Shown: piece by piece, positions 1-61,868 of the stretch | Layout of the letters: each line of letters starts with the position of its first letter | Numbering within the stretch: position 1 is the first letter of the stretch | DNA from: Planctomycetota bacterium | Lineage (GTDB): Bacteria > Planctomycetota > UBA11346 | DNA: 64,000 nucleotides | Assembly (NCBI GenBank): GCA_013816485.1 | Contig: JACDEI010000020.1 | Coordinates: 1-64,000, forward strand | Direction of reading: 5' to 3' | Notes under the pieces: model-generated | The model's input: only the letters and a program-made list of their open reading frames with translations | Told to the model about the DNA's origin: nothing | Databases searched by the model: none | Made by a program: the position numbers and the translations under genes

Positions 1-118
1 CCCCTCGTACCCCTCGTACCTTTCGTCGTACCCCTCGTACCCCGCGTACCTTTCGTCGTACCCCTCGTACCTTTCGTACCTTTCGTCGCACCCCTCGTAC
101 CTTTCGTACCTTTCGTAC
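1..118. repeat. Short tandem repeat array, 9-nt unit family CCCTCGTAC / CCTTTCGTAC
   Basis: Repeated cccctcgtac / ctttcgtac units seen directly; array runs off the left window edge and ends about 18 nt before the ATG at 136. Confidence 0.9.
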
Positions 119-135
119 TCTCATAGCCTCCCGCC

Positions 136-1152
136 ATGCTGATCCTGCTCGTACGCGTGGTGTTCGTGACCCTGGCTACCTTGGTCGGCCTGACCAGCGG
201 CTCGATCATCTACCGCACCGCCTTGGACGACAGCCTGCCCGGATGGTTCGGCGCGGCGATGGGCTTCGGCATCGCCATCACCTTGATCGCCTGTGAACAC
301 GCCTTCCGTCGCCGTTTCACCCGCAGCCTGGTCGCGTTCATCCTCGGCCTCGGTGCCGGCCTAACGCTGTCGTGGGTCCTGCTGTCGGTGCTGCGTCTGG
401 TGCTGCAGGACGAGAACTTCATCAACAACCTCGATCTGCCGCTCGCCCTGGTGACCACCTATCTGGTGCTGGTGCTGGTGCTGCGCAATGCCGACCACTT
501 CCGCGTGGTGGTGCCGTTCGTTGAGTTCCGGGCCGAACGCGCGGACTCCGGCGCGGTGGTGCTCGACGCCGGCGCGCTGGGCGATGGTCGCACCGCCGCG
601 CTGGTGCGTTCCGGCCTGTTGCCACGTCGCCTGCTGGTGCATCGCCAGGTGCTGCTGGCGTGCGAAACCGCGGCCGCAGCGAACGATCCGACGGTTGCCG
701 CCCGGGGACGCCGCGCGCTCGACGGGCTGAACGAGTTGCGTTCCATGCCCAACACCCAGGTGGAGATCGACGACACCGAGATCCCCAACGCCACCACGCT
801 CACGGACGTGCTGGTGCACCTCACCCGCCTGGAACACGGACGGCTGCTGGCGGTGGACAAAGAGGTGCTCACCCGCGGCATCGCCGAGGCCGTCACCATC
901 ATCGACCTCGCTGCGCTCGCCGGCGCCTTGTCGCCGACCCTGCGCCCTGGCGATGAGATCAGCGTGATGATCGAAAAGCCGGGTGAGGTCAAACACCAGG
1001 GCGTGGGTCACCTTGACGACGGCAGCTTGGTGGTGGTCGGCAATGCCGCCGATGCGATCGGCACACGTGTCGACTGCACGATTGTGCGACTGCACGCGAC
1101 CAGCAACGGACGCATGGTCTTCGCCGATCGGGTTGCGTCGGCAAAGACCTGA
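136..1152 (+). CDS. PIN/TRAM domain-containing membrane protein (YacL-like)
   Basis: N-terminal TM helices, then PIN-like core (VVLDAGALGDGRTAALVRSGLLPRRLLVHRQVL...) and a C-terminal TRAM-like segment (KPGEVKHQGVGHLDDGSLVVVGNA). Confidence 0.85.
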   Translation: MLILLVRVVFVTLATLVGLTSGSIIYRTALDDSLPGWFGAAMGFGIAITLIACEHAFRRRFTRSLVAFILGLGAGLTLSWVLLSVLRLVLQDENFINNLDLPLALVTTYLVLVLVLRNADHFRVVVPFVEFRAERADSGAVVLDAGALGDGRTAALVRSGLLPRRLLVHRQVLLACETAAAANDPTVAARGRRALDGLNELRSMPNTQVEIDDTEIPNATTLTDVLVHLTRLEHGRLLAVDKEVLTRGIAEAVTIIDLAALAGALSPTLRPGDEISVMIEKPGEVKHQGVGHLDDGSLVVVGNAADAIGTRVDCTIVRLHATSNGRMVFADRVASAKT

Positions 1153-1212
1153 AACGGACGGGTGTTTGCTCAGGGGTCTCGCCAGAGCAGCCAGAGCAAT
1201 TGCACAGAGGAA

Positions 1213-58677: not shown

Positions 58678-58740
58678 TTCTAGCTGTCTCGCCCCACCCT
58701 TGACCGTCCTCCGCCGGTTCGACCATCCCCGCGCCGAACG

Positions 58741-58920
58741 ACGACAGCGGGAGAAGTCCCAGCCGGTCAACGACCGGGTCCGGGGTGCCGAAGGAGTAAC
58801 GCTCTCAGGCCAAAGGACCGCTGCCCGACGGCACCCTGGAAAGTCCGTGATGCCCGACCACCAATCGGCGTCATGGCGCCGACGGAGTCACGCTCTCAGG
58901 CACCGGAACAGGGGACCACG
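58741..58920 (+). promoter_or_regulatory. Tandem glycine riboswitch upstream of gcvP
   Basis: Aptamer 1: gcgggagaagtccc...tgccgaaggagtaacgctctcaggccaaaggaccgc; aptamer 2: cctggaaagtcc...gcgccgacggagtcacgctctcaggcaccggaacagggga. Confidence 0.93.
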
Positions 58921-58985
58921 CTGCGCCATCGTCGACCCACGACGGCGCGTGTCCGTGTTCCCTCTCCTGGGTCGGAGTCCATTCC

Positions 58986-61868
58986 ATGTCCAGCGCGCCA
59001 GCCTCCGCCAACATCCCCAGCCTTGCCCACCCGGATCGTTTCGTCAGCCGGCACATCGGGCCCGACGCCGCGGCACAGGCGACGATGCTCGGCAAGCTCG
59101 GCTACAAAACGCTCGACGCGCTGATTGAGGCCGCGGTGCCGGCGCAGATCCGTCGACACGGCGCGCTCAAGCTGCCCGAGGCCGGTTCCGAACACGCGGT
59201 GCTCGCCCAGCTCAAGGGCATGGCGAGCAAGAACCAGGTGTTCCGCTCGTTCATCGGCATGGGCTACCACGACTGCGTGGTGCCCAGCGTCATCCAGCGC
59301 AACGTGCTGGAAAATCCAGGCTGGTATACGCAGTACACCCCCTACCAGGCGGAAATCTCGCAGGGCCGCATGGAAGGCCTGCTGACCTTCCAAACCATGG
59401 TGAGCGACCTCACCGGCCTGCCGATCGCCAACGCCTCGCTCCTCGATGAGGCCACCGCCGCCGCCGAAGCCATGGGCCTGTGCGTTGCGCTGAAGGACGA
59501 CCGCAAACTGTTCTTCGTCTCGCGCGACTGCCATCCGCAGACCATCGACGTGGTGAAGACCCGCGCCAAGCCGCTCGGCGTCGAGGTGCTGGTGGGCGAC
59601 TACCGCGAGTTCGCCTTCCCCGCCGGCCTCGCCGGCGTGCTGCTGCAATATCCGTCCACCGACGGCGCGGTGCGCGACTATCGCGAGTTCGCCAAACGTG
59701 CGCATGATGCCGGCGCGCTGGTGGTTGCCGCCTGTGATCTGTTGGCACTGACGCTCATCGTTCCTCCCGGTGAATGGGGCGCCGACATCGCAATCGGCAA
59801 TTCCCAGCGCTTCGGCGTACCGCTCGGTTATGGCGGTCCACACGCGGCGTTCTTCGCCATCAAGGACGAATACAAACGCCTGATGCCCGGCCGCTTGGTC
59901 GGTGTTAGCCGCGACCGCCACGGCAAGCCGGCACTGCGCCTGTCGCTGCAGACGCGCGAGCAGCACATCCGCCGTGAAAAAGCGACCTCCAATATCTGCA
60001 CCGCGCAGGCGCTGCTCGCCAACATGGCGGCGTTCTACGCAGTTTATCACGGCCCCGAGGGCCTGACCGCCATCGCCACGCGCGTGCATCGTCTGGCCGC
60101 GGCGTTCGCCGCCGGCCTCAAGCGCCTGGGCTTCACCTACGGCCCGACGGTGTTCTTCGACACCATCCGCGTCGACGTGCCGCACCAGGGTGCGGAGATC
60201 CTGAGCCTGGCGCAGACCCACCGCATCAACCTGCGGGCCATCGACGCGCACACCATCTGCGTGGCGCTCGACGAGAAGACCTCCGCCGCCGACGTCGAAG
60301 AACTGCTCGGCATCTTCAACCTGGGCAAACCCCTCGGCTTCACCATCGCCGATGTGGCCCCGGACGCCGGACTCCGGACGCCGGACGCTCTCCGTCGTTC
60401 GTCGCCGTTCCTGCGCCACCCGATCTTCAATCGTCACCACAGCGAAACCGAGATGCTGCGCTTCCTGCGCCGTCTCGAAGCCAAGGATCTCTCACTCTGC
60501 CACAGCATGATCCCGCTCGGTTCGTGCACGATGAAACTCAACGCCACCAGCCAGATGCTGCCGGTGTCGTGGCCGGAGTTCGGTGGCCTGCATCCGTTCG
60601 CGCCGGTGGCACAGGCGCAGGGCTACCAGGAACTCTTCCAACAGCTCGAAGAGTGGCTCGGCGAAATCACCGGTTTCGCCGGTGTATCGCTGCAACCCAA
60701 CGCCGGATCACAGGGCGAATACGCCGGTCTGCTGGTCATCCGCGGCTGGCACGCCAGCCGCGGCCAGGGCAATCGCGACATCTGCCTGATCCCGATGTCG
60801 GCCCACGGCACCAACCCCGCAACCGCGGCGATGGCGGGTATGACCGTGGTGCCGGTGGCCTGCGATGCGCAGGGCAACATCGACGTCGCCGACCTGGAAA
60901 AGAAAGCAACGGAACACCGCGAGCGGCTCGCCTGCCTGATGGTCACGTACCCCTCGACGCACGGCGTGTTCGAAGCCGCGATCAAGGACATCTGCCGCAT
61001 CGTCCACGAGCACGGTGGGCAGGTCTACATGGACGGCGCGAACATGAACGCGCAGGTCGGCCTCACCAGCCCTGGCACCATCGGCGCCGATGTGTGCCAC
61101 CTCAACCTGCACAAGACCTTCTGCATCCCACACGGCGGCGGCGGACCGGGCATGGGCCCGATCGGTGTCGCACGTCACCTCGTGCCGTTCTTGCCCAAAC
61201 ATCCGGTCATCGACCTCGGCGGCGACAAGTTGCTTGGTGCGGTCAGCGCCGCGCCGTGGGGCAGCGCCAGCATCCTGGTGATTCCTTGGGTCTACATCGC
61301 CGCGATGGGCGCCGAAGCCCTGACGCAGGCGACCCGCGTGGCGATCCTGTCAGCGAATTACATCGCCAAACGTCTCGGCTCTTACTTCCCGGTGCTCTAC
61401 TCCGGGCACAACGGCACCGTCGCCCACGAATGCATCGTCGACCTGCGCCCGTTCAAAGTCCATGGCGTCGAAGCCGAGGACGTGGCGAAGCGCCTGATGG
61501 ATTACGGCTTCCACGCACCAACCCTGTCGTTCCCCGTGGTCGGCACGCTGATGATCGAACCGACCGAGAGCGAACCGCTGCCCGAACTCGACCGCTTCTG
61601 CGAGGCGATGATCAGTATCCACGGCGAGATCATCGCCATCGCTGAAGGCCGCCTCGACAAGAAGGACAACCCGCTGAAGAACGCCCCGCACACCGCGGCG
61701 GAAGTCACCGCCGACGTGTGGACGCATCCCTACGGCCGCGAACTCGCCGCTTTTCCGGCAGCGTGGACCCGCGAAGCCAAATTCTGGCCCAGCGTCGGTC
61801 GCGTCGATTCCGCGTACGGCGACCGCAACCTGGTGTGTTCGTGTGTGGGGATGGAAGCCTACGCCTGA
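58986..61868 (+). CDS. gcvP: Glycine dehydrogenase (decarboxylating), single-chain P-protein
   Basis: [119 protein letters not shown]. Confidence 0.97.
60361..60388 (+). repeat. In-frame 7-nt tandem array inside gcvP (CGGACGC/CGGACTC x4)
   Basis: cggacgccggactccggacgccggacgc, encoding [10 protein letters not shown]. Confidence 0.85.

Follow-up and report, generated by a model that had tools for sequence, protein, structure and literature searches.

Opposed tandem-array hairpins of many unit families at gene borders in a Planctomycetota draft genome

The window analysed here is a 64,000-nt stretch of Planctomycetota DNA (positions 1-64000 of contig C68) within a 5.2-Mb draft metagenome-assembled genome (MAG; 101 contigs, 87% complete), whose proteins include the planctomycete-type domains PSD1, PSCyt1, PSCyt2 and DUF1501, which suggest the Planctomycetota/Verrucomicrobiota neighbourhood. 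Many of its intergenic regions carry hairpins of one design, in which two short tandem arrays face each other, the second being built on the approximate reverse complement of the first. A previous sequence-only reading of this DNA had named six unit families, all of which were recovered at their places with Tandem Repeats Finder, an inverted-repeat search and direct reading. The paired-arm design that it described holds at most loci; single arrays are found at 1-118, 35599-35626 and 60360-60388, and at 36107-36167 the right arm is degenerate at best. Gene calls came from a simple hexamer model built for the present analysis, and within the window Rfam matched a tRNA and a glycine riboswitch and nothing else. 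Folded as single strands, six of the seven window elements were better than all 200 shuffles, the exception being the element at 4224-4364 (z -1.25).

Two classes of elements were distinguished. Class A, with the units GGAGGACC, GGAGGAAC, CACGAAGR, CCACAGAGG and CGCMGAGGN, includes the hairpin at 8041-8140, with CCACAGAGG 9-mer arms (8055-8126), CTAG at the outer arm edges and a strong fold (z -10.4), and a miniature inverted-repeat transposable element (MITE) of ~165 bp at 48862-49031, with GGAGGACC arms at 48896-48917 and 48969-48997 and AGAAGCTGTCTTGAAAG terminal inverted repeats. Class B comprises the units GTCCGRR, GTCCGAT, GTCCGGAA, GGTACGARN/GGTMCGARN, GTGCGAN and AGCTNCG. Its weakly folding 7-mer element at 4224-4364 has GTGCGAN arms (4224-4258 and 4333-4364; the unit GTGCGAC is present) around a 74-nt unique loop, and lies 16 nt past one gene and 17 nt ahead of the next. 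The GTCCGRR element at 52632-52758 (CGGGGTC/ACTCCGG; arms 52643-52671 and 52719-52749) has a 47-nt unique loop and ATTGCC tags at both ends, and it changes the C-terminus of the gene upstream relative to sister genomes. The 8-mer GTCCGGAA element at 58602-58681 (GGAAGTCC at 58608-58675) has a 14-nt loop and is located between divergent genes. Directly downstream of it is the glycine riboswitch aptamer (58738-58830), upstream of a 960-aa open reading frame (ORF) at 58986.

The 9-mer elements of class B include a compound GGGTACGAR element (GGGTACGAG) at 42934-43165, with left arms at 42937-42970 and 43013-43046 and long right arrays at 43063-43162; relatives of GGGTACGAG lie at 1-118, 16789-16901, 36107-36167 and 51515-51596. 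Within the compound element, 42937-43083 holds a head-to-tail duplication of a 76-nt module that comprises a left array, GGATGAAGTCACTCCGAC and a short right array. The GGTMCGARN element at 16781-16901 (arms 16789-16829 and 16849-16901) carries a ATTGCCCC tag at its left end, and TACG and TCCG units alternate in both of its arms, while the GGTMCGARN element at 51515-51596 occupies a 96-nt gap between two genes. The GGTACGARN-family array at 1-118 (minus strand, with the C-rich strand on plus) is truncated by the contig start and probably represents the right-hand arm of an element that precedes the gene at 136. The GGTMCGARN array at 36107-36167 (plus strand) begins 6 nt past a stop codon, its right partner being degenerate or missing. 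At 35599-35626 (plus strand), four GTGCGAC units stand without a partner 18 nt past a stop codon. The CCGGACG/CCGGACT array at 60360-60388 (minus strand) falls within the ORF 58986-61868 and may be coding sequence instead of an element.

The design extends well beyond the window. About 25% of the genome (1.32 Mb), in part contigs previously known as repeat carriers, was scanned for tandem arrays of period 6-12 followed by an approximate reverse-complement array at most 300 nt away. This detector returned 104 opposed pairs in the 1.32-Mb set and 72 in an 855-kb set, against none in ten and none in three first-order Markov resamples, respectively, so that the composition-matched control proposed by the sequence-only reading gave no pair in 13 resamples. 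The period of every pair is 7, 8 or 9 nt (56, 24 and 24 pairs), and the shared architecture claimed for the window spans many unit families. Inverted pairs outnumber same-direction pairs (104 vs 18), the purine-rich arm is the 5' one in 94 of the 104, and 93 are intergenic, where random placement would give ~10%, in agreement with the intergenic bias that had been anticipated. A comparison set of named unrelated loci (617 kb) yielded eight pairs, with period 6 for most. Extrapolation gives ~400 such elements genome-wide, a rough figure because about a quarter of a draft MAG was scanned, partly from contigs preselected for repeats. The draft state of the MAG, in which some contigs terminate inside arrays, could be taken as a sign of composition, assembly error or chance, but the empty resamples and the repetition of the design in independently assembled sister genomes leave this explanation a negligible probability.

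The units had been described as unrelated in sequence. Several families do differ, but others share a core, either GTCCG followed by GG, GA, AT or GAA, or GGTMCGARN. Among 40 genomes searched, GGGTACGARGGGTACGA is spread through its own genome only, with scattered matches elsewhere, nearly all of them single.

Within class A, the GGAGGACC element is an ordinary MITE. It is found at more than 20 genomic places with ~81-99% identity, and most of 24 aligned copies have AGAAGCTGTCTTGAAAG terminal inverted repeats at both ends. Many copies are flanked by a 5-nt CTNAG target duplication (CTTAG, CTCAG, CTAAG or CTGAG), which is equal within a copy and varies between copies. Repeat number differs among the copies, in support of the slippage that had been proposed. 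It resembles MITEs such as BrickBuilt, which has an internal minisatellite (PMC4596501), in its terminal inverted repeats, target duplication and many copies; both are too small for a gene and contain internal tandem repeats. Unlike in BrickBuilt, the GGAGGACC repeats are 8 nt long, are present in both arms and form a hairpin (PMC4596501). The GGAGGAAC, CACGAAGR, CCACAGAGG and CGCMGAGGN families each have their own few conserved bases immediately outside the arms, and could also be mobile. Among the families, a MITE identity applies to GGAGGACC, and the hairpins as a whole are not copies of one mobile element.

Class B pairs follow rules of composition and siting. Arm lengths of the 7-mers peak at 30-32 nt, corresponding to four units and a part, and 9-mer arms are more variable. 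Across the arrays of both classes, 83 of the 86 neighbour pairs at most 250 nt apart share a family (13% expected), and the arrays point toward each other 76 times vs once, indicating that a pair is one entity. The same-family pairing rules out the independent insertion of single arrays, and 15 of the 17 single arrays follow the polarity rule of the pairs. In the 7- and 8-mer families of class B the median distance between stop codon and stop-side arm is 8 nt, and 37/41 such arms lie within 20 nt, compared with 8/40 for class A (P 7e-11), a gap that is partly expected because class A arms sit within longer elements. The outer flanks of class B sum to a median of 37 nt, against ~298 nt expected for random insertion into native intergenic DNA, and loop plus flanks amount to 95 nt, near the native intergenic median of 122 nt. 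A single mobile element behind all the pairs is ruled out by the unique loops and differing ends, as the sequence-only reading had held. GTCCG pairs were also observed within predicted genes, at L161:9034-11087 (G000:C19) and at L151 (C89:191117), which would therefore be in-frame inserts, pseudogenes or gene-calling errors.

Sister genomes showed both empty sites and sites with another unit, supporting the species differences and unit switching that the sequence-only reading had proposed to look for. Where G001, G003 and G005 were alignable (genes ~67-78% identical), no element was present at 51512-51607, 52643-52749 or 42921-43199, nor by the array at 35599. The compound element at 42934-43165 is absent from the orthologous site of G001, the G001 gap orthologous to 35599-35626 has no such array, and the gap orthologous to the 51515-51596 element is ~14 nt long in G003 and similarly short in G005. 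One site on contig C71 has an AGCTTCG hairpin in G000, a GGAGACGC hairpin in G003, none in G001 and a plain terminator in G005; the next has GTCCGAT in G000, GTCCGGAA in G003 and none in G001. GTCCGNN arrays were found in 9 of 23 family genomes (the window's own counted) and elsewhere in the phylum only sporadically; their linkers vary from genome to genome, and the hairpin design was seen by reading in G002, G005, G013, G015, G020 and G022. The loops of a 7-mer and an 8-mer element type in G002 have a common stretch of 19-33 nt, which may mean that one element has switched its unit, or that both types contain the same smaller repeat. In G015 (L329:346-484), an AGCTTTG hairpin contains GTCCGCA-type arrays as its loop, a nesting of two families.

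Comparison of the two arms bears on how the hairpins are renewed. The sequence-only reading had favoured slippage combined with hairpin templating, by which each hairpin would be built in place from local sequence. Variable repeat numbers are compatible with this, as is the alternating TCCG/TACG order common to both arms in three 9-mer elements (C45:109357, C45:119787 and C68:16789), but that shared order would be explained equally well if the arms descend from one ancestor, and is likely a trace of an older common arm. In GTCCGRR elements the agreement of the two-base linkers is 0.73 within an arm and 0.39 between the arms of one element, against 0.51 when permuted, and unit order is not mirrored between arms; arm-to-arm templating is therefore not the current process. 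A local origin also does not account for the recurrence, at tens of loci as well as in other genera, of the same few units with one fixed polarity. Construction in place thus appears very improbable.

A lead to the mover comes from the ATTGCC[AC]C tags, which are enriched and located ahead of arrays. An ATTGCC tag is present on at least one side in 14 of 48 GTCCG/GTACG elements and on both sides in four, where ~1% would be expected; it is absent from the class A, AGCT and GTGCG groups. A repetitive extragenic palindromic (REP) family also starts with this tag, and its GATTGCCCCTGGCCGGCTGGCAGCCGGCGCTCCCAGGGG copies (L257:49-1040) surround a gene for a Y1 transposase, similar to REP-associated tyrosine transposases (RAYTs), at C22:267-842. 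Class B pairs could accordingly be true REPINs, mobilised by a Y1 (RAYT) transposase recognising both tag and hairpin, and no target duplication was obvious in the tagged elements inspected by eye. Against this, none of the ten Y1 loci of G000, some of which have other REP stems, carries a paired tandem-arm hairpin with 7-9 nt units, and only one has ATTGCC-tagged REPs, of another stem; the loops, moreover, are not copied. G002, G013 and G019 all carry GTCCG arrays but gave no match to the C22 transposase (drafts 61-79% complete), and G007 and G011 have Y1 genes but no such arrays. This distribution among genomes and Y1 loci weakens RAYT as a general mover; we regard REPINs proper as quite unlikely, and the link between tag and Y1 transposase as a lead.

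The explanation that we tentatively favour is one of multi-family foldback repeats, in which class A is MITE-like and class B consists of REP/REPIN-like paired arrays at gene borders whose arms turn over separately. Class A hairpins would travel in MITE-like elements, or be such elements. In class B, family-specific pairs of about four-unit arrays would be acquired as one entity with fixed polarity, and would come to lie beside genes, the first arm no more than ~20 nt away from a stop codon. Once in place, the two arms would turn over independently of one another, by slippage and unit drift, the core (GTCCG, GTMCGA or AGCT) being kept while the linker changes, which could leave sister species with different units, even of 7 vs 8 nt, at a shared site. 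In transcripts, most pairs would form a long GC-rich stem immediately after the stop codon. The effect expected would be REP-like, namely an exonuclease block, modulated termination or altered stop-codon-proximal translation.

Several results weigh against this explanation. Only ~29% of GTCCG/GTACG elements are ATTGCC-tagged on at least one side, and no transposase was linked to class B. Stem mismatches of the G-U and A-C types showed no RNA-strand bias (55 vs 51), so that selection at the RNA level through G-U pairs, which would correspond to the structural selection invoked by the sequence-only reading, left no signal. When 20 class B loops were compared with the whole genome, they matched only themselves, bar one weak partial match. 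The unique loops and short outer flanks are therefore more readily explained if the arms were placed around DNA already present than if an element was copied.

Some process could accordingly have placed same-family arrays at both borders of an existing intergenic region, with the native terminator or promoter becoming the loop. The very short outer flanks agree with this, as does the near-native length of loop plus flank. The loops are unique and ordinary in structure content, with no enrichment of terminators (z<-2 in 4/36 loops vs 12/80 controls), and at one site an intrinsic terminator lies within the loop where in G005 a terminator directly follows the gene. However, the terminators in loops could have arisen afterwards or been brought in, the loop is missing together with the arms at some sister sites (the 14-nt gap of G003), and to our knowledge no enzyme places arrays round existing DNA. 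Taken together, we consider the placement of arms round native DNA somewhat unlikely. A broader form, in which a process that is neither transposition nor templating writes inward-facing, stop-codon-anchored arrays of one family at both intergenic borders, and over time rewrites the unit, even its length, in both arms, is in our view unlikely.

The multi-family foldback explanation can be set beside several known systems. The short tandemly repeated repetitive sequences (STRRs) of cyanobacteria are dispersed tandem heptamer arrays, which the 56 of 104 pairs made of 7-mers resemble, whereas the 8- and 9-mers fall outside STRRs. The closest parallel to class B is given by the GGGAATC heptamers of Xanthomonas, mostly of four units and ~90% intergenic, with 70-75 convergent inverted pairs per genome, which lie closer to the 5' ORF (mean 28 nt) and rarely between divergent genes (Rehm et al. 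2015, PMC4692102). Heptamer units, four-unit arrays, convergent pairs, and an intergenic location near the 5' gene are common to both. In Xanthomonas, however, there is one G-quadruplex-forming unit family, while here there are many families with 7, 8 and 9-nt units, unit switching between species and tighter stop-codon siting; GTCCGAT, AGCTNCG and GTGCGAN contain no G-runs, unlike the G-tracts of GGGAATC. In the Nostoc trnL(UAA) intron, opposed 7-nt repeats form the P6b stem, and shifts from the class II to the class I motif keep the structure (PMC4476775), but this is one intron locus under RNA-folding constraint, in contrast to the loci described here, which are scattered between genes and lack an RNA-strand signal.

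REP/REPIN sequences with their RAYTs (PMC3116915, PMC3733652, PMC12306157) are like class B in forming intergenic inverted doublets as well as singlets, with a less conserved spacer, stop-codon-proximal sites and, in some, a 5' tag. They differ in that the arms described here are tandem arrays of a variable unit, the spacers are unique and the RAYT link is inconsistent. PMC12306157, citing Liang 2015, indicates that REPs at most 15 nt from stop codons affect translation in E. coli. The eukaryotic Foldback/Galileo elements, with a P-type transposase, have inverted ends of internal repeats round a variable middle (PMC3573991), and the likeness is in form only.

The elements do not constitute one mobile element. 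They are best classed as a multi-family variant of the opposed arrays and REP-like repeats already known, and one of their families is an ordinary MITE. Opposed arms, which the sequence-only reading had singled out as unusual, were previously known as heptamer pairs of a single unit in Xanthomonas and as the stem of one Nostoc intron, but a search of open-access papers found no account of the coexistence of many such families together with unit switching. What is new is this coexistence of many families with 7, 8 and 9-nt units, stop-codon anchoring and unit switching. Many families of one design, with species-specific units at shared sites, make origin, spread and unit change directly testable, and if the stop-codon siting matters, the elements could add a level of control over 3' ends across the whole lineage, which belongs to a group with many uncultured members.

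A different arrangement was observed at ~45000-100000 of G000:C40 (L287-L289), a dense zone with many different heptamer arrays (GGCGANN core and others), mostly unpaired and several with more than 10 units.

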